Shown: piece by piece, positions 17,603-26,538 of the stretch
Position numbering within the stretch: the first letter of the stretch is position 1
Layout of the letters: each line of letters opens with the position of its first letter
From: Bacteroidales bacterium
Lineage (GTDB): Bacteria > Bacteroidota > Bacteroidia > Bacteroidales > Dysgonomonadaceae
Length of the DNA: 34,474 nt
Reading direction: 5' to 3'
Assembly: GCA_012798745.1 (NCBI GenBank)
Contig: JAAZMQ010000125.1
Coordinates: 1 to 34,474 of the forward strand
Notes under the pieces: model-generated
Databases searched by the model: none
Seen by the model: the letters and a program-made list of their open reading frames with translations, nothing else
Told to the model about the DNA's origin: nothing
Position numbers and translations under genes: made by a program

Positions 17603-19591
17603 ATGAGAAATTACAAAAAATTATTCGTTATTTTATTGAATGTTATATTTGCATATTCGCTTTATGCTCAAACCAACGAAATGGTTGTTCGAACCAATAA
17701 ATCCGGCGCCGAGATTCAACCTACCATGTACGGTCTTTTCTTTGAAGACATCAATTATGGAGCTGATGGAGGATTGTATGCCGAATTAGTTAAAAATCGT
17801 TCCTTTGAGTTTCCTGACCCTCTGATGGGATGGAAGCCGTTTGGTAAGGTGTTTGTTCGTAACGATGGGCCTTTTGAAAGGAATCCGCATTACGTAAGAT
17901 TGGAATATGCAGCTCATCCGCATAAACATACGGGATTGGATAACGAAGGTTATTTCGGGATTGGCGTTAAACAGGGTGAAGAATACCGTTTTTCGGTGTG
18001 GGCTCGAACGGTAGATGATGCAAAAAATGCAAAAATCAGGGTCGAACTGGTAGATGTTTCTTCCAATGGTGAACGACAGGCTTTTGCTTCGCAAGAACTT
18101 ACGATAAATTCTTCGGAATGGGAAAAATATCGGGTCATTTTGAAACCCGATAAAACGTTTGGTAAATCCGTTTTGCGAATTTTTTTGACTTCACGTGAGG
18201 GGGTCGATTTGGAACATGTTTCGCTCTTTCCCGTAGATACATGGAAAGGTCATGAAAATGGACTTCGCAAGGATTTGGCTCAGGCACTTTACGACATGCA
18301 TCCCGGTGTTTTTCGTTTTCCGGGCGGGTGTATTGTCGAGGGAACCGATTTGGCAACCCGGTACAACTGGAAAAACAGTGTGGGTCCTGTAGAAAACCGA
18401 CCGTTGAACGAAAACCGTTGGCAATATACCTTTACCCATCGTTTCTACCCCGATTACTATCAGAGTTACGGTCTCGGGTTTTATGAATATTTTCTTTTAA
18501 GCGAAGAAATCGGCGCTGAACCTCTTCCGGTGGTCAGTTGCGGTCTTGCATGTCAGTTTCAAAACGATGATCCGGCAGCCCATGTATCTGTGAGCGAGTT
18601 GGGAAGCTACATTCAGGATGCGCTGGATCTGATTGAATTTGCCAATGGCGATACCACGACCACATGGGGCAAATTACGCGCAGAGATGGGTCATCCCGCT
18701 CCGTTTCATCTGAAATTTATCGGTATAGGCAACGAACAGTGGGGACCCGAGTATCCCGAACGGCTCGAGTCTTTTGTCAAGGCCATTCGTAAGGCTTATC
18801 CCGACATAAAAATCATTGGTAGTTCGGGTCCTTCATCCGAAGGGGAACAATTTGAATACCTTTGGCCTGAGATGAAACGTATCAACGTGGATTTGGTGGA
18901 TGAACATTTTTATCGCCCCGAAAGCTGGTTCCTAAAACAAGGTTCACGCTACGATAATTATGACCGCAAAGGGCCTAAGGTTTTTGCAGGGGAATATGCG
19001 TGTCACGGTGAAGGCAAGAAATGGAACCATTTTTATACCTCCCTGCTCGAAGCTGCTTTCATGACCGGAATGGAACGCAATGCCGATGTAGTACACATGG
19101 CAACCTATGCTCCTCTTTTTGCTCATACAGAAGGTTGGCAATGGCGGCCGGATCTGATCTGGTTCGATAATTTACGCTCGATGAAAACGGTCAGTTATTA
19201 CGTGCAGCAGCTTTATTCGCTGAATAAAGGTACGCACGTGCTTCCACTTACCATGAATAACCGTCCGGTGGCAGGGGCTGATGGACAAAACGGCTTGTTT
19301 GCGAGTGCCGTATGGGATAAAAACCAACAGCAGGTGATTGTGAAAATTGTGAATACTTCGGAAAAGGAACAGCCGGTTAAACTGAATTTCAGCGGATTGA
19401 AGAAATCCGAAAAATTAACCGACGGAAAACTCATCACGTTGAAGTCGGACGATTTGGATGCCAAAAATACCTTGGAAAATCCTTTCCTTATTGTTCCGGA
19501 AGAAAAAGATGTTTCCGTTGAAGGAAATGTGTTGGAATCGCATATCGAGCCCTATTCGTTTTACATTTATGAATTTGTGTTAAGCCGATAA
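17603..19591 (+). CDS. Secreted alpha-L-arabinofuranosidase, GH51
   Basis: Releases terminal L-arabinofuranose from arabinan or arabinoxylan by a retaining mechanism. The 662-aa protein has a signal peptide (MRNYKKLFVILLNVIFAYSLYAQ, cleavage near residue 22), a GH51 start (MYGLFFEDINYGADGGLYAE), and a CBM4/9-like insert (about 75-205; YFGIGVKQGEEYRFSVWART). The catalytic barrel follows with RFPGGCIVEGTDL. The acid/base is Glu378 (GIGNEQWGPE) and the nucleophile Glu464 (VFAGEYACHG). A C-terminal beta-sandwich ends in PYSFYIYEFVLSR. Everything needed for activity is present. No SusC/SusD pair is nearby, so it is an orphan enzyme rather than part of a visible utilisation locus; the esterase near 9 kb may act on related polymers. 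Confidence 0.95.
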   Translation: MRNYKKLFVILLNVIFAYSLYAQTNEMVVRTNKSGAEIQPTMYGLFFEDINYGADGGLYAELVKNRSFEFPDPLMGWKPFGKVFVRNDGPFERNPHYVRLEYAAHPHKHTGLDNEGYFGIGVKQGEEYRFSVWARTVDDAKNAKIRVELVDVSSNGERQAFASQELTINSSEWEKYRVILKPDKTFGKSVLRIFLTSREGVDLEHVSLFPVDTWKGHENGLRKDLAQALYDMHPGVFRFPGGCIVEGTDLATRYNWKNSVGPVENRPLNENRWQYTFTHRFYPDYYQSYGLGFYEYFLLSEEIGAEPLPVVSCGLACQFQNDDPAAHVSVSELGSYIQDALDLIEFANGDTTTTWGKLRAEMGHPAPFHLKFIGIGNEQWGPEYPERLESFVKAIRKAYPDIKIIGSSGPSSEGEQFEYLWPEMKRINVDLVDEHFYRPESWFLKQGSRYDNYDRKGPKVFAGEYACHGEGKKWNHFYTSLLEAAFMTGMERNADVVHMATYAPLFAHTEGWQWRPDLIWFDNLRSMKTVSYYVQQLYSLNKGTHVLPLTMNNRPVAGADGQNGLFASAVWDKNQQQVIVKIVNTSEKEQPVKLNFSGLKKSEKLTDGKLITLKSDDLDAKNTLENPFLIVPEEKDVSVEGNVLESHIEPYSFYIYEFVLSR

Positions 19592-19595
19592 CCTG

Positions 19596-19651
19596 TTTTA
19601 TCTGTATTTAGCAGCATGAGATATATTAAATAATACTAAATACAGGTAAAA
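19596..19651. repeat. 16-bp inverted repeat (24-bp spacer) downstream of GH51
   Basis: Arms TTTTATCTGTATTTAG (19596-19611) and CTAAATACAGGTAAAA (19636-19651) match at 15 of 16 positions, and the odd pair would be U-G in RNA, so the stem is complete. Only a short, mixed T-rich stretch follows on the right, so it is a poor classical terminator. It may still end the GH51 transcript or act as a regulatory site for the fimbrial operon. Confidence 0.75.
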
Positions 19652-19672
19652 AGAATTATTTTTACATTAAAT

Positions 19673-19696
19673 CCTATTATTTGTGAAAATAATAGG
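19673..19696. repeat. Perfect 10-bp inverted repeat abutting the fimbrial operon -7 box
   Basis: CCTATTATTT and AAATAATAGG are perfect inverted copies with a GTGA loop. The right arm ends one base before the candidate -7 box, so this could be an operator or the stem of a small hairpin. Confidence 0.75.
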
Positions 19697-19697
19697 G

Positions 19698-19705
19698 TAC
19701 GTTTG
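19698..19705 (+). promoter_or_regulatory. Candidate -7 box for the fimbrial operon
   Basis: TACGTTTG fits TAnnTTTG, 77 bp before the first ATG of the fimbrial operon. A TTTG lies upstream at 19680-19683, but the 14-bp spacing is shorter than usual. Confidence 0.4.
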
Positions 19706-19709
19706 TACT

Positions 19710-19740
19710 ATCAAAACATCGATTGGGAAAGGGTTTTGAT
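19710..19740. repeat. 8-bp inverted repeat in the fimbrial operon leader
   Basis: ATCAAAAC (19710-19717) and GTTTTGAT (19733-19740) are perfect inverted copies with a 15-bp spacer. They lie just downstream of the expected transcription start, so they may form a leader hairpin. Confidence 0.55.
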
Positions 19741-19781
19741 TTATCTTAGTTTTTTCATGTAACGAACACAATTTATAATTA

Positions 19782-20804
19782 ATGATAAAACGGACAATTT
19801 ATACTCAATCGCATCAGTTATTTGTTTTTTTATTATTGCCTCTTCTGTTGGGGTTTGGGAGTTGCAACACCGATGGTGAAAAGGTAGATAATTTATCGAT
19901 TTATGTTCGTTATTGTCGGGAGACATTCAAAGACGATTTTCAACGGTACATTACCCAAATCCGGTATTTACTCTTCGATGAAGACGGAGTTTTGCAACAC
20001 GTTTCATCGCTGCAACGTGGAGTAAATCCCGATCTTCAACATCTTTCACCCGCATTGCCTTACGGTCGTTATACCTTGATTGCAATTGGCAATTATGATG
20101 AGCACACAGCATGCGATTATGAAGTGGGTGCTACTCGTTTGGAGGAGCTGACGTTGGCAATTCGTCTTCAGCAGCCGGACGTTCTGCAAGGCGATTGCGA
20201 TCCGATATACTGGGGAATACTTCCTTTTGAATATACCGCAAATAAAGCGAATGACTATATCTGCGACATGAGCAATATTCATTGTCGGTTGCGCGTTACT
20301 GTGAGATGGGCAAATCATTTGCCCGAATATCGACAAGGATATTCGTTGCATCTCTATAATGTACCCGGCGTGTACGGCTTATCACCCGCATATCGCATAA
20401 AACTTTTGTCCGATGCGAATGCCGATCCTTATGACAGTACACTGTCGCAAATTGTCCACAGTTTTCCGGAAACCGACGATACACGTTTGCTTCATCACGG
20501 CAAAAAGGTCGATATGTATTATGCAGAACTCGATGCCGAATTTGTCACCTATCGTTATACGGATGACCGGATACCTTCTTTCCGCATGTATCACGGGGAA
20601 GAGGCCATGATGAAAGAAATTGACCTGACGCGATTTTTTCGCATTCAAGGATGGCAACCTTCGCGTATTGCAGAGCAAAATTTCCATGTGTTGGTGGTCA
20701 TCCATCCGCAAACAGATAAAGTCACCGTTTCTTCTTTTCCGCAATCGGATGTGGCGGGTTGGCACGACGGCGGATCCATCTCGGTAAATAGACAATGGGA
20801 ATAA
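19782..20804 (+). CDS. FimB/Mfa2-family fimbrial anchor lipoprotein
   Basis: Predicted outer-membrane lipoprotein that anchors a fimbrial shaft and limits its length, by analogy with Porphyromonas FimB/Mfa2. The 340-aa protein starts with a lipoprotein signal ending in LLLGFGSC, lipid-bearing Cys28, followed by acidic residues that fit surface export. The next part has the Mfa2-like pattern: LSIYVRYCRETF, YITQIRYLLFDEDGVLQH, and LPYGRYTLIAIGNYD, which is the beta-sandwich core. A second sandwich occupies the C-terminal half and ends in FHVLVVIHPQTDKV. It is the first gene of a four-gene lipoprotein operon, with 16 bp to the next gene. The family assignment rests on layout and motif pattern. 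Confidence 0.8.
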   Translation: MIKRTIYTQSHQLFVFLLLPLLLGFGSCNTDGEKVDNLSIYVRYCRETFKDDFQRYITQIRYLLFDEDGVLQHVSSLQRGVNPDLQHLSPALPYGRYTLIAIGNYDEHTACDYEVGATRLEELTLAIRLQQPDVLQGDCDPIYWGILPFEYTANKANDYICDMSNIHCRLRVTVRWANHLPEYRQGYSLHLYNVPGVYGLSPAYRIKLLSDANADPYDSTLSQIVHSFPETDDTRLLHHGKKVDMYYAELDAEFVTYRYTDDRIPSFRMYHGEEAMMKEIDLTRFFRIQGWQPSRIAEQNFHVLVVIHPQTDKVTVSSFPQSDVAGWHDGGSISVNRQWE

Positions 20805-20820
20805 TTTATAAATCAATGAT

Positions 20821-22431
20821 ATGGTTAAAAAGTTGGTTCTTATGTATGAAAAAAATTATGTTTTGCTTGTTGCGTTTGTTTTTTTGATGATGGCGTCATG
20901 TAGCGATGAATCCCTTGTTCCCGATTCGTCTGCAACCGATAGGAATATGCATTCCATCGTATTCACGATTGCTCCGCCCTCTGCTGAGCCGGTAACGTAT
21001 GCGATGGAGCAGGATTTGAATGAATGCAGGATCGAAACGCTTGATGTTTATGAATTTGATTGCGACGAGATATTTTCCCTCGATGAGGCTGTATTGCATG
21101 CGGTTTATACTGCGGATACGGAAGGGTATGAATGGAGTGATTCTCAAACAGGGGGTTCAAACGGTCTTCGATTGGTTTTGAAGCCGGATTTGTCCGATAC
21201 CGGTGAGCGTATTTTCCTGTTCGTGGCTAATGCCGGTTGTGCAACCAATGGTGGAACGTCCGAAGATTTAACCCAACTGACCTCGGGAAGTATAACGATG
21301 GGAGCATTTATCCGGAAATTGACCCAAGAGCTTGCGGATGAGGGTCCGGCGTCGCCTTTTGTGATGACGGGATTTTCTGAGCAGATTAAAATAGTACACG
21401 AAATGCAGTATTCCGGTCACATTGCGATGACCCGGGCTGTGGCACGTATAGACCTGTGTACGGTGCTTACGAATGCCAATGATTTGTTGGCAATTACTTC
21501 CATCACATTGAAAAACGTGCCGAAATCGTCCTGTCTTTTCCCCATGCCGAAGCTGACAAAAACAGAAACGGAAATCACCTATGAAAATCCTTCCGATGCG
21601 CTAACGTATAAAACGAAAACGGCAGCCGCTTTGGATTATACTTTTGAAACAGAAGAGCCCGGAAAACAACGAACAAAGCGTTTGTTTTATCTCTATGAAC
21701 GGGCACAGAGTCAGTTTGAGGAAAAAGGAACTCCAACTCTCTCCATCGAAGGAGAATATACGCCCGAGAATGCCGATCGGGCAGTTAAAGTGTACTACGA
21801 AATTCCGTTCGACCGATCTGTGAAGCGCAATTATCTTTATACTGTGCAACTGGGTGTGGAAAACGATTTGGAGGGTTACAAAGGACGTGTTTGCGGTATA
21901 ACGGTAGAAAAATGGCAAGGTGAAACGGAAGTGTCCGGGGACATTGCTTTGTTAACGGTGGCGGCTAATGAGAAGGACGAAATCTATATGTATGATGAAA
22001 CTACCCATACGCTGACCATTACGTTGCCCGTGGCACAGTCGCTTACCGATGTATTTACCGTCGTGAGTGCTTTCAAGGACGATGTTTTCACGTTTGAAAC
22101 AGAAGATCCCAATACTGCGAAAACCATTGTGAACCCCAACAACGGTTGGATAACCAACGGCACAATTGTGGACGGCAAGGTTTCGTTTGATGTGGCCGAA
22201 AATACGTTGGGCCTTTCCCGTGAGGGAGTGATATGGATTAAGAGCAGCAAAGATGCCACCGGTGCCGATGCATACGGCATTAAGATTGTTCAGCAAGGCG
22301 AAACGGGGGTTTCACAAAACGGTCTTCTTTCTTTTTCGTCTTTCTTCGACAGGTACGTGCAAAACCATAGGGAAGAAAACTCTTTTTTAACTATTCAGGT
22401 GCTAGGGCACAGAAACGAAATAATCGGATAA
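20821..22431 (+). CDS. Fimbrillin-like lipoprotein
   Basis: A 536-aa surface lipoprotein, probably a structural or tip subunit of the fimbria. The signal peptide ends LMMASC (Cys27), followed by SDES, which resembles the Bacteroidetes surface-export signal. Met8 at 20842 is an alternative start. The first about 350 residues have fimbrillin-like features: IETLDVYEFDCDE, ERIFLFVANAG, MTRAVARIDL, LTIEGEYTP-type strands and VKRNYLYTVQLGV near the end of the second sandwich. From about 375 a BACON-like module occurs (SREGVIWIKSS ... IKIVQQG). The final 45 residues (after VSQNG) match nothing I recognise and end abruptly, so the C-terminus may be worn. I cannot say whether it is the main shaft subunit. 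Confidence 0.72.
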   Translation: MVKKLVLMYEKNYVLLVAFVFLMMASCSDESLVPDSSATDRNMHSIVFTIAPPSAEPVTYAMEQDLNECRIETLDVYEFDCDEIFSLDEAVLHAVYTADTEGYEWSDSQTGGSNGLRLVLKPDLSDTGERIFLFVANAGCATNGGTSEDLTQLTSGSITMGAFIRKLTQELADEGPASPFVMTGFSEQIKIVHEMQYSGHIAMTRAVARIDLCTVLTNANDLLAITSITLKNVPKSSCLFPMPKLTKTETEITYENPSDALTYKTKTAAALDYTFETEEPGKQRTKRLFYLYERAQSQFEEKGTPTLSIEGEYTPENADRAVKVYYEIPFDRSVKRNYLYTVQLGVENDLEGYKGRVCGITVEKWQGETEVSGDIALLTVAANEKDEIYMYDETTHTLTITLPVAQSLTDVFTVVSAFKDDVFTFETEDPNTAKTIVNPNNGWITNGTIVDGKVSFDVAENTLGLSREGVIWIKSSKDATGADAYGIKIVQQGETGVSQNGLLSFSSFFDRYVQNHREENSFLTIQVLGHRNEIIG

Positions 22432-22461
22432 TGGTTGAACCGGATTTAAATTGATAGAAAC

Positions 22462-24861
22462 ATGAAGATACGAACATTTAATGCATTATTTACCCTTGTT
22501 TTAGCTTTTGCTCTATTGGTGATCGCAGGATGTGATAGAGAGAATCAACGCATATCCGATATCGATTTGGACGGAAAAAATTCCTATTCGCTCAGGTTGC
22601 ATTTGAAAGGGGTTTCCGCTCCCTTAACGACGTATGCCGTGGATGTTTCGGCAGAGGAACACGAAAAGACGGTGAGCAATCTTTCGGTTGTCTTTTTCGA
22701 TCCATCCGATCAAACCTATTTGGGTACCGTTGCCGCAACGGTAATTGCGTCGGATAATCCCGAAGAGGGTATCTCTGCATGCTTCGATGCACGGCCGGTT
22801 ATTCAGGATCATCCTGTCACGGCGGAAGTGGCGTTTATGCTGATCGCTAATATGACGGTTGAAGAGGTAAATGCAGTCGTGGAGGCAGTTAAATCGAAAA
22901 TAGAAGCGGTAGCGCTTACCGATCTTACCTATACCGATATCAAAACGCATGCAGTGGTGACAGCTCATGCACCCGACAACTTTTATCATTTTGTGATGGT
23001 AAGTAACGAGAAAAGCACTACGCCGGGTGACGAACTTTACGGCGTAACCCTGACAAAAGGCGTGCAGCAGGAGATAAGCAGCAGCATCACGCTGAGTCGT
23101 CTTTCGGCACGTATCGACGTGGAACTGGTTGGTGTCGATACGGAAGGGGAGATGGAAGATTTTGTGTTGTCTAACGTAACAGTGAAGAATCGGCAGACGC
23201 AGAGCAACCTCTTTGAGCTGGCAACGGCATCCATTACGGCGGGAAGTGAAGATAAAGAGTATACAACAGATATAGCCGAACCATATACCTCGCTTAAGCA
23301 TGCAATTTATACCTATGAAAATTCGACCGACGGGGGAACCTATCTCGAAGTAAACATGAAATACCGGGATATCGAGTTGACGCCGGTAATTGTTCCTTTT
23401 ACGGGAAAGGCTATTCGACGCAACCATATATATAAGGTAAAACTATCGCGTGCGGCAGGTGATGATTACGACCCCGAGCAGCCTACGGAACCGAATATCA
23501 ATATGCCTGAATTTACGTGGACTATTGATGTGAACGACTGGGATACAGATGATACAGAGGTATCGGATGACCATCGTTTGACGGGTGCACCTGTGATAAC
23601 GAATATTTCGAAAGCGGATGGAGTTATCGTCGACGAAACCCTGCAACAGGTGTATTTGACCGGCAATAATACCTCCGCAGTTTTTACTGTGGAAACCGAA
23701 AGCAATTCGGTGGAAGCCGACGTCGATGAATGGCTGCTGCCTTCATGGTTGCATAAAACGGGCATGACCATTGTACCGGGTTCCATGAAGCAGATTTTCG
23801 AGTTTTCGGCCGACGAGAATCCGTCGGAAAACAGAAGAGATGGTACGATTCGGTTGATCAATAAACTGGATGCGGACAGTTATGTGGATCTGACTGTGAC
23901 GCAGGGTGTTTACTATCTTGTGGACTACACTTTTGAGGCGTCGGAAAGCGCACTGAATTTTGAAAGTGTTCCTACATGTTCGGTGCAGATTACTTCCCGG
24001 AAAACAATGGAGGCGTATACTCATGAGGATGGGGAACGACTGCCGGAATGCGACGGTATCATTGCAGATCTTCCGTTTACGGCAACCGTAACGGGCGAGG
24101 GCTTTTCGGTAACAACCGAAGGACAAACGGTAACGGTGATGGCAGAGCCGGGTGCCGTGGAAGGGATACTTACTATTATGTTGGATGAGAATGCGGCATA
24201 TCAAATCGCAATTCCGCTGACGAAAGCATCGGTAGCCGAATATGTTGCTTTTCCGGATACGCACGTCTTTGCGCGGCTGGCAGAATATAATGTAAGTGAC
24301 ATACACGGAGCGTTTACCGACAGTCACAAAAATAACAGCAGCGGATACTATACGTGGGAAGAAGCAAAAACAGCTTGTCCGCCGGGATATCACTTGCCGT
24401 CTAAAGAGGAGTTTAACAGGTTTATTCCGGATATCGAAGTAATTGCTTTCACAGATAAAGTGGCTTATCGGATTGTTGGCGATGGTGTGGCTCGTGCGGC
24501 GTATCGGTACGAATTGGTGGGAAATTTTGGTGATGGTTATGAAGAGGAGTTGACTTCTCATTTGAAAATTACCGGTCGGTATTTGGGTACTAATTATCCG
24601 GAGGAAGTATCAGATAGTACGATTTCCAACGAATCGTGGTGGAACGATCATAATGGAAATGATGTCGTTCGAAGTTTCCCGGCAGCCGGTAAGTGCAATA
24701 TTGATGGGAACACGAAATTAGTGGGCTTTCGAGGTTTTTGTTGGGCTTCAGATTCTGCTGAAACCAATCCGTGGCATATGTTCTTCGATAGCGAAAAGGT
24801 TAAAATAGCGAATAACATTGGTAAATCGGAAAAGTTTACGGTGCGTTGTGTGAAGGATTGA
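22462..24861 (+). CDS. Large fimbrillin-like lipoprotein with BACON-like and C-terminal FISUMP-like domains
   Basis: A 799-aa surface lipoprotein, a good candidate for a fimbrial tip adhesin. The lipobox is LLVIAGC with Cys24. Residues about 40-340 are a fimbrillin-like double sandwich (VSNLSVVFFDPSDQ; TLSRLSARIDVELVG; RRNHIYKVKLSRA). About 375-485 resembles a BACON domain (LLPSWLHKTG ... RRDGTIRLINK ... DLTVTQGV). A third beta domain follows at about 485-590. Residues about 590-799 look like the Fibrobacter major paralogous (FISUMP, TIGR02145-type) domain: ACPPGYHLPSKEEF, SFPAAGKCN, GFRGFCWASDSA and the terminal KFTVRCVKD. The two Cys pairs may form disulfides. It lies 30 bp after the preceding fimbrillin gene. 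The ligand is unknown. Confidence 0.77.
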   Translation: MKIRTFNALFTLVLAFALLVIAGCDRENQRISDIDLDGKNSYSLRLHLKGVSAPLTTYAVDVSAEEHEKTVSNLSVVFFDPSDQTYLGTVAATVIASDNPEEGISACFDARPVIQDHPVTAEVAFMLIANMTVEEVNAVVEAVKSKIEAVALTDLTYTDIKTHAVVTAHAPDNFYHFVMVSNEKSTTPGDELYGVTLTKGVQQEISSSITLSRLSARIDVELVGVDTEGEMEDFVLSNVTVKNRQTQSNLFELATASITAGSEDKEYTTDIAEPYTSLKHAIYTYENSTDGGTYLEVNMKYRDIELTPVIVPFTGKAIRRNHIYKVKLSRAAGDDYDPEQPTEPNINMPEFTWTIDVNDWDTDDTEVSDDHRLTGAPVITNISKADGVIVDETLQQVYLTGNNTSAVFTVETESNSVEADVDEWLLPSWLHKTGMTIVPGSMKQIFEFSADENPSENRRDGTIRLINKLDADSYVDLTVTQGVYYLVDYTFEASESALNFESVPTCSVQITSRKTMEAYTHEDGERLPECDGIIADLPFTATVTGEGFSVTTEGQTVTVMAEPGAVEGILTIMLDENAAYQIAIPLTKASVAEYVAFPDTHVFARLAEYNVSDIHGAFTDSHKNNSSGYYTWEEAKTACPPGYHLPSKEEFNRFIPDIEVIAFTDKVAYRIVGDGVARAAYRYELVGNFGDGYEEELTSHLKITGRYLGTNYPEEVSDSTISNESWWNDHNGNDVVRSFPAAGKCNIDGNTKLVGFRGFCWASDSAETNPWHMFFDSEKVKIANNIGKSEKFTVRCVKD

Positions 24862-24920
24862 AGAATATAAGGATGGGTTGGCAATAAGTTGGAGTCTTGA
24901 GGCATGAAAACAGGGGACGG

Positions 24921-26240
24921 ATGACAAGAAGCCGTTTGTCAGTTGCGTTGCTTTTGCTGTTATTACTCGGCTGTTCACATGAGGAGAATAGCGAATGGCA
25001 GGAGGGACGCCGCACGGTATTGGTTTATTTGGCGGGCGACAACAGCCTTTCGGAGGAGGTGGTAGCGAAGCGTGCAGCGCTGGTTCAGGCATGGTGTCCC
25101 GAGAGGAAAGGGGCGCTGCTCATCTTTACCGACCACAAGGGAGGGGTGCCTGTGTTGGAACGGGTGAGTGCACTCAACGGAGTACTGTTTAGCGATACGC
25201 TGCGCGTATATGCCAACGACAATTCCGCATCGGCAGAACTTTTGAGCGAGGTGATCGCCGATATGCAGTTGTTGGCGCCTGCCCGTTCCTATGGATTGTG
25301 GCTGTTCAGTCACGGCACGGGTTGGTTGCCCGCGGGTTTTTTCGAAAATCCTTACGGCATGGTTGTATTCACCACGCCGCAAGTATGCTTGGAGGCTTAT
25401 CGCCGACCGGCTGTTTCTACACGTTCTTTTGCCCGCGACGGCAATCGCGAAATGGAAATTGCCGATTTGAAAGCTGCGCTTCCCAACGGGCTTTTCGACT
25501 TTATCGTTTTTGAGTCCTGTTTTATGGGAAATGTCGAAGCGATATATGCCTTGCGAAACAAAGCACCTTGGATGCTGGTTTCGCCCACCGAAATCATCAG
25601 TCCGGGTTTTGCACCTATTTACGATAAAGTCTTACCGGAACTTTACGAAGCGAAACCCGATTTGCAGGCGGTAGCCGAGTTATTTTACCGCTATTTTGAT
25701 GCACAAGAGGGGGTATATCGCGGTGCGGCCATCACGTTGGTAAATACTGCCGGAATGGCGTCGCTGGTCCACGTTTGTCGACCTGTGTTGCAACGCGTGG
25801 CGCGCGAAAGCATAATGGCTTCGACCGGCCGCCCGTTCGCGCGCGACCGCTTCCTTTCGTCGAAGCCGTTGTTTTCCCTCGGTTCCATACTTTCGCAGGA
25901 CTCACTGTTTCTGGCAGACTCGCTGCTCCCCATCGACCAATTGTTTCCCCTTGACCCATTGCTTTTTTCTGGCCCTTTGCTTCCTCTCGACCGCTTGGAT
26001 AAACATCTCTTTTTCGATTTTCGTCACTATTTTTCTCTTATTTCCGATCCATCCGAAATGGATGCGATTGATGCAGCTCTTAACCAAGTTGTTGCGTGCT
26101 ACTATCACACGCCGAAGATGATATCTGTTTCGCTCGAAAACACTTCAGGTTTGTCGGTTTATGGCGAACAGCCCGACCTAAAAACCCTCAACAGCCTCTA
26201 TCGGCAAACGGAATGGTGGACAGACTTGATTGGTCGATGA
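24921..26240 (+). CDS. Clostripain-family (C11) cysteine protease, lipoprotein
   Basis: Predicted surface protease of MEROPS family C11, relatives of clostripain and fragipain, which usually cut after Arg or Lys. The ORF track starts at a TTG (24897); I choose ATG 24921, which follows AGGGGACGG, a Shine-Dalgarno-like run, and gives 439 aa. The lipoprotein signal is LLLLLLLGC (Cys18). The caspase-like core has TVLVYLAGDNSLS, catalytic His131 in LFSHGTG and catalytic Cys200 in VFESCFMGN, followed by VSPTEI and PGFAPIYDKVL. Residues about 312-358 form an odd Leu/Pro/Asp-rich stretch of near-repeats (LLPIDQLFPLDPLL). It sits 59 bp after the fimbrial tip-like gene and is likely part of the operon, which points to processing of fimbrial subunits. 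Confidence 0.88.
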   Translation: MTRSRLSVALLLLLLLGCSHEENSEWQEGRRTVLVYLAGDNSLSEEVVAKRAALVQAWCPERKGALLIFTDHKGGVPVLERVSALNGVLFSDTLRVYANDNSASAELLSEVIADMQLLAPARSYGLWLFSHGTGWLPAGFFENPYGMVVFTTPQVCLEAYRRPAVSTRSFARDGNREMEIADLKAALPNGLFDFIVFESCFMGNVEAIYALRNKAPWMLVSPTEIISPGFAPIYDKVLPELYEAKPDLQAVAELFYRYFDAQEGVYRGAAITLVNTAGMASLVHVCRPVLQRVARESIMASTGRPFARDRFLSSKPLFSLGSILSQDSLFLADSLLPIDQLFPLDPLLFSGPLLPLDRLDKHLFFDFRHYFSLISDPSEMDAIDAALNQVVACYYHTPKMISVSLENTSGLSVYGEQPDLKTLNSLYRQTEWWTDLIGR

Positions 26241-26538
26241 AACCAATTTATCTCAGGTTGTCCTGTTATTATGTTGTCGTTTTTTCTCGATACCGAATGT
26301 AATGTAATATTACCGGAAATGACATTTTATACGACGGGACAAAAGGGTTTTCGTGTTTTTTTAAAAATAAAAAAGTGCTCTCCAAATCCAGGTAAGCACT
26401 TTTTGTATTTTATTGTCTTGAAAATCGGTTGTTCCCAAAGCAGGGAAAAACAAATCTTTCGTGTCCCGTTTTTATCCCTTCATTATCATGCGACCATGCA
26501 GAAAATCGTTTACTAATGCGGGTTTCGGACAAAATTTG
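26241..26538. other. Intergenic region between the C11 protease gene and tRNA-Pro
   Basis: About 300 bp with no convincing ORF. It contains a palindrome GTAATATTAC near 26305, a loose inverted repeat TTGTCCTG/CGGGACAA, and a clear bidirectional terminator (listed separately). Confidence 0.6.
26370..26404. terminator. Bidirectional rho-independent terminator between the fimbrial operon and tRNA-Pro
   Basis: AAAAAGTGCT (26370-26379) and AGCACTTTTT (26395-26404) form a perfect 10-bp stem, giving a U-run on either strand. It can end the plus-strand protease transcript and the minus-strand tRNA transcript. Confidence 0.85.

Follow-up and report, generated by a model that had tools for sequence, protein, structure and literature searches.

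We analyzed a 34,474-nucleotide contig of a Bacteroidales bacterium assigned to the Dysgonomonadaceae (JAAZMQ010000125.1), referred to here as the window. Four open reading frames, all on the forward strand, span positions 19782 to 26240 with intergenic gaps of 16, 30, and 35 to 59 nucleotides, and all four encode a signal peptide and a lipobox cysteine. The first (ORF1; 19782 to 20804, 340 amino acids) encodes a FimB/Mfa2-type anchor lipoprotein, matching Pfam Mfa2 (PF08842) with 60.5 bits against a cutoff of 21.2 and, weakly, the PDB entry 5nfi of Mfa2. The next two, ORF2 (20821 to 22431, 536 amino acids) and ORF3 (22462 to 24861, 799 amino acids), encode fimbrillin-like lipoproteins 1 and 2, which match the NCBIfam fimbrial tip model FimD with 67.8 and 68.1 bits, respectively (E values of about 1e-18), below the model cutoff; fimbrillin 1 also aligns with other fimbrillins. 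The C terminus of fimbrillin 2 is a FISUMP domain (TIGR02145; Pfam Fib_succ_major), and the protein is a probable tip adhesin. Sequence searches of the PDB with the fimbrillins gave no matches for three queries, and the AlphaFold2 model of fimbrillin 1 is poor (pLDDT of 43) and lends weak support at most. As candidate type V precursors, the two proteins have the lipoboxes and an aligned maturation site, with profile scores under the curated cutoffs and a low-confidence model of fimbrillin 1.

The fourth gene (ORF4; 24921 to 26240, 439 amino acids) encodes a C11 clostripain-like lipoprotein protease (Pfam Peptidase_C11, PF03415; 62.9 bits, above the cutoff). The ATG at 24921 is the likely start, with the lipobox LLGC; translation could alternatively begin upstream, at a TTG (24897). 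Counted from this ATG, the numbering of the catalytic residues His131 (25311 to 25313) and Cys200 (25518 to 25520) agrees with that of the original prediction made from this DNA. The anchor, the two fimbrillin-like lipoproteins, and the C11 protease form one operon-like unit. The set of four same-strand lipoprotein genes that had been predicted is confirmed by the open reading frames, lipoboxes, and Pfam and NCBIfam matches, as is the intact dyad; neither residue varies across the aligned subfamily.

Upstream of the anchor gene, TACGTTTG (19698 to 19705, forward strand) matches the pattern of a candidate Bacteroidales -7 box; the pattern occurs 39 times in the window against 31.5 expected, so chance matches are common and the match alone is weak evidence. 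A strong terminator-like hairpin follows the protease gene on the same strand (26362 to 26412; -16.3 kcal/mol, z score of -5.6), with a tRNA-Pro downstream. We ruled out the C11 gene as an independent unit because it has no promoter-like gap before it and disappears together with the operon. A horizontal island signature was also rejected, as all four genes fall within the base-composition range of their neighbors. Neither Rfam, in which the tRNA-Pro was the sole match, nor PADLOC, which gave no matches, provided a further lead.

Comparison with sister species shows that the four genes form a discrete block. In genome G001, the tRNA-Pro region comes directly after the flanking arabinofuranosidase gene, and window positions 19591 to 26534 have no counterpart. 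In genome G003, the anchor, fimbrillin 2, and protease genes survive at the same place as remnants with deletions between them (junctions joining window positions 20614 to 24403, 24689 to 25580, and 25760 to 26128), which indicates that the unit decayed as a whole. Besides these remnants, G003 has retained an ordinary Arg-type fimbrial operon (L067), and it has an Asp-type C11 at another location (L048).

C11 genes beside fimbrial genes in the Bacteroidales

Among more than 100 related genomes, we found 11 intact operons in the window's family (the window, L039, L040, L041, L042, L054, L056, L057, L059, L062, and L064) in which a C11 gene lies about 3 to 6 kb from an Mfa2 anchor gene on the same strand. 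Two more cases are apparently split by contig ends (L066 with L052, and L075 with L043), and C11 genes also lie beside fimbrial genes in families f30 (L128) and f105. The co-occurrence of C11 and Mfa2-like genes, which had been proposed as a check on the original prediction, is thus a real association in at least three Bacteroidales families, and its recurrence across genera and families places the arrangement beyond chance.

Several of these operons contain further genes. Uncharacterized lipoproteins of about 280 to 340 amino acids, which are absent from the window, are encoded just before the C11 gene in L041 (8972 to 9862), L054 (8274 to 9197), and L057 (8695 to 9543), and just downstream of it in L039 (at 10899), L041 (at 11330), and L052 (at 5007). 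In the f105 operons L209, L210, L211, L216, and L217, genes for very large proteins (about 1200 to 2250 amino acids) separate the fimbrillin genes from the C11 gene.

Altered S1 pocket of the fimbria-linked proteases

The window protease is a member of peptidase family C11 by sequence, fold, and His/Cys dyad. ORF4 matches the PDB entries 6mzo, 6n9j, and 3uws, and a Foldseek search with the AlphaFold2 core found 6mzo with a TM score of 0.85 by target length (E value of 1.8e-28). Specificity for Arg/Lys is considered to be caused by an S1 Asp (PmC11 Asp177, clostripain Asp229), with PmC11 Asp207 assisting (PMC4850288; PMC11296011), and Asp177 is said to be conserved throughout C11. By alignment, the window enzyme has Glu198 (25512 to 25514) in place of the first Asp and Pro228 (25602 to 25604) in place of the second. 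We therefore treat it as a C11 homologue and do not file it as an Arg/Lys-specific clostripain; with both residues replaced, the earlier expectation of a typically Arg-specific enzyme is not supported.

Every fimbria-linked C11 combines Glu at the Asp177 position with Pro at the Asp207 position. Across the 94 C11s that we collected, Pro accompanies Glu in 54 of 54 Glu-type sequences (one further Glu-type sequence, in which the second column is missing, was left out) and occurs in 6 of 38 Asp-type sequences. The Glu-type C11s form one group on the tree, except for one Asp member (L034) beside the window enzyme, and the S1 change essentially arose once. Because of this single origin, genome counts share ancestry and are not independent; independent evidence comes from contrasts inside single genomes and from the repeated gain or loss of the fimbrial linkage. 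High-scoring matches in a class-wide search were confined to the window's order, and a genome-contig scan with the window protease found one distant Asp-type C11 and nothing else. The nearest relatives of the window C11 (L034, L035, L037, and L038 of genus g14; 45% identity) are mixed for Asp and Glu at S1 and keep the Pro; no Mfa2 anchor was found in the g14 genomes that bear them.

Tyrosine at the maturation site of the fimbrillins

The cut in type V pilins falls at an Arg or Lys of the beta1-beta2 loop, a site that is missing from the anchor (PMC5789003; PMC5954841). A check for conserved Arg/Lys sites had been proposed for the N-terminal parts of the fimbrillins; in the window, we found no Arg or Lys at the usual loop position and T-Y-A in both proteins. 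Tyr60 of V-T-Y-A in fimbrillin 1 (20998 to 21000) falls in the column occupied by Arg/Lys in ordinary type V pilins and sits in the beta1-beta2 loop of the low-confidence model. Its counterpart by alignment in fimbrillin 2 is Tyr58 of T-T-Y-A (22633 to 22635), and we propose both as maturation sites.

Site calls relied on sequence patterns and visual inspection near the lipobox. In the window's family, the 11 intact operons with a C11 gene encode 24 fimbrillins, of which 22 have Tyr; the remaining two, from the sister pair L054/L059, have Lys. Tyr was found at the site in none of the 25 C11-free anchor operons of the family (Fisher P = 1.7e-9 at the operon level). It was likewise absent from all 36 fimbrillins of family genomes without a detected C11, where two pattern matches fall outside the site; the absence of C11 was called for 72 genomes from a search with one protein, by which distant members can be overlooked. 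In a hand-made table at the genome level, 11 genomes of the family have both features, 1 has C11 only, 2 have Tyr only, and 30 have neither (P = 1.2e-7). The genomes with Tyr pilins in which no Glu-type C11 was found (G018, G086, and G984) are all incomplete assemblies.

In homologous subunits, Tyr aligns with Lys or Arg. Genome G024 encodes one tip protein with PKTYALDENDENEV (L041) and another with PKTKSLTENNENEV (L077), in which the Tyr aligns with a basic residue. A shaft pair with SPATYAEG (L042) and SSLRSVG (L077) is 50% identical over the whole protein. The consensus over 51 Tyr sites is P-[SKT]-T-Y-A, in which the flanks of T-[RK]-A are kept. Together, these comparisons suggest that the protease and the pilin cut site changed in concert from Arg/Lys to Tyr.

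Family f105 was sampled after this idea had been formed. The predicted pairing of a Glu-type C11 with a Tyr fimbrillin was seen in L208, L209, L210, L217, L221, L225, and L228, and G920 has three Tyr fimbrillins and a C11 on one contig; the same pairing occurs in L129, which was examined before this sampling. However, the prediction failed for many Glu-type C11s of this family, which have no fimbrial neighbor. In G921, G874, G872, G919, G890, and G911, such a C11 is accompanied by Tyr pilins elsewhere, and in G937 on another contig. No Tyr pilins were found in the f105 genomes G907, G892, G885, G889, G903, and G883, nor in G013, which also have a Glu-type C11 without a fimbrial neighbor; the readable loci cover part of the anchors.

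Tyr and Arg/Lys subunits are mixed in operons L054, L059, L129, L225, and L228. In the last three, from genus g119, a Glu-type C11 (LEACLM variant) is accompanied by one fimbrillin with P-Y-A and one with [ST]-[RK]-A. Another residue is found in two shaft subunits (L085:5837 and L089:8587) from C11-free operons of G009 and G023, which have T-H-S or P-H-S at the site.

A putative dedicated pilin protease and alternative explanations

The best explanation of these observations, which we judge to be on balance somewhat probable, is a type V fimbrial operon with a built-in, dedicated pilin maturase that cuts TY|A. The subunits would arrive at the surface as lipoproteins. Ordinarily, an Arg/Lys protease cuts the beta1-beta2 loop of type V pilins, removing the first strand and opening the groove for strand exchange; here, the operon C11 would take the place of this general protease, and a cut at T-Y|A would free the subunit from both its lipid anchor and its first strand. 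The anchor protein, which lacks the site, would remain lipid-anchored. Judging from sequence comparisons, it is quite likely that the operon C11 cuts the pilins, and TY|A is a slightly favored position for the cut. The original proposal that the protease processes pilins locally stands in its operon membership, with maturation as the best reading of its role, but not in the Arg-specific cutting that it assumed. We further consider it plausible, though short of probable, that Tyr specificity replaced Arg/Lys specificity in this clade of clostripains, which co-evolved with the pilins it matures, such that an orthogonal maturation system (T-R/K-A to T-Y-A) could operate in the same cell as ordinary type V pili without cross-processing.

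No C25 protease (PF01364) was matched in the window genome, G000, which is about 80% complete, and C25 is absent as a general pilin processor from most genomes of the family. In most of the family's genomes with a Glu-type C11, a single-protein search found no other C11. Genomes G004 to G099 (loci L147 to L176) have no detected C11 and, where tested, mostly no C25, yet they encode Arg/Lys pilins; if the standard model holds, a further basic-specific protease is needed there in any case.

An alternative is that the C11 has remained specific for Arg/Lys and processes the fimbrillins at a basic residue, while T-Y-A has another role, such as packing or shielding from other proteases. In its favor, Arg168 of the window enzyme (25422 to 25424) aligns with the C11 zymogen cleavage site between the light and heavy chains (PmC11 Lys147), and Arg or Lys occupies this column in 52 of 54 readable Glu-type C11s, which counts against a full switch of specificity and would be odd for a self-activating Tyr-specific enzyme. 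In addition, Glu at S1 is still acidic, and a basic residue lies two positions before the Tyr at 13 of 51 sites. However, 30 of the 51 Tyr fimbrillins, including both from the window, have no Arg or Lys at a distance of up to 6 residues from the site, Tyr takes the very column of Lys/Arg in paralogues, and both S1 acids are altered together. We therefore regard continued Arg/Lys cutting of these pilins as unlikely. Under the dedicated Tyr-cutting maturase, the basic residue at the zymogen site would probably reflect activation by another Arg/Lys protease, or else some retained basic specificity; as a step in its own right, activation of the zymogen in trans is a doubtful suggestion from the alignment.

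The C11 could also be a general surface lipoprotein-releasing protease, like the fragipain of Bacteroides fragilis, that is co-inherited with pilins matured by something else. Clostripains of the fragipain type have numerous surface lipoproteins as substrates (PMC12632263), and Glu-type C11s occur apart from fimbriae in many f105 genomes. Against this, the linkage with Tyr-type fimbrillins is repeated, Tyr fimbrillins are nearly absent where no Glu-type C11 was found, and the genes were lost or decayed as a single block in sister species, which makes a purely general role quite unlikely. The Glu/Pro subfamily may nevertheless act on other surface lipoproteins too. Its members without fimbrial neighbors include L206, L207, L212 to L215, L218 to L220, L222 to L224, and L227, as well as L036 and L063 in family f1.

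A lineage effect, in which an ancestral cluster had Tyr pilins and a Glu-type C11 with no functional coupling, would suit the essentially single origin of the S1 change but is very improbable, as Tyr and Arg/Lys operons share a genome with the C11 in the Tyr operon only, the operon-link label changes 11 times on the tree (5 or more of the changes being required by well-supported branches) with Tyr still present, and Tyr persists across 51 sites despite high sequence divergence.

Relation to known type V pili and C11 proteases

As in the Mfa1 and FimA systems of Porphyromonas gingivalis, the window clusters genes for a lipoprotein shaft, anchor, and tip (PMC5789003; PMC5954841). There, a clan CD surface cysteine protease (RgpA/B, C25) removes the N-terminal strand and leaves the anchor uncut (PMC5789003; PMC5954841), and we propose the window enzyme as the counterpart. 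It differs in being encoded within the operon, in belonging to C11 rather than C25, and in the Tyr that replaces Arg at the site. Another parallel is the surface clostripain fragipain (Fpn) of Bacteroides, also a C11 surface lipoprotein tied to type V pilins, which a 2025 review states to cleave them, with no mention of operon linkage or a Tyr site (PMC12632263). Unlike the window enzyme, fragipain is a general clostripain that acts on many surface lipoproteins, has not been described within a pilus operon, and is paired with Arg/Lys pilins. The original prediction knew of no description of this arrangement as a system; pilin cleavage by a surface clostripain as such is on record in that review, but in the open literature on C11 or clostripain with fimbriae or pilins we found no description of an operon-borne, site-matched version, although an earlier one is possible.

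Outside Porphyromonas, few details are available on the protease responsible for type V pilin maturation, and this operon sets a candidate enzyme beside its substrates and pinpoints the residue and the pocket positions at which specificity could be examined. If the proposed maturase is real, it would represent a natural specificity switch, matched in its substrates, within a family described so far as basic-specific.

The C11 enzymes characterized so far have Asp at S1 and cut after Arg/Lys, in contrast to the Glu/Pro pair of the window enzyme. PmC11 of Parabacteroides merdae (3UWS/4YEC) and distapain (6MZO) share the fold, the His/Cys dyad, and the basic zymogen site with it. Ac-VLTK-AMC is a good substrate of PmC11 (PMC10315481), and its Thr at P2 is shared with the T-Y-A of the window. 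Besides the Asp177-to-Glu and Asp207-to-Pro replacements, the window enzyme differs from PmC11 and distapain by an extra linker and an insert. The activation linker before the heavy chain is about 25 residues longer than in relatives. The insert (25837 to 25995), in which we found no tandem repeat, comprises about 52 residues after about residue 306, is absent from relatives, is rich in Ser, Leu, and Asp, and is modeled with low confidence.
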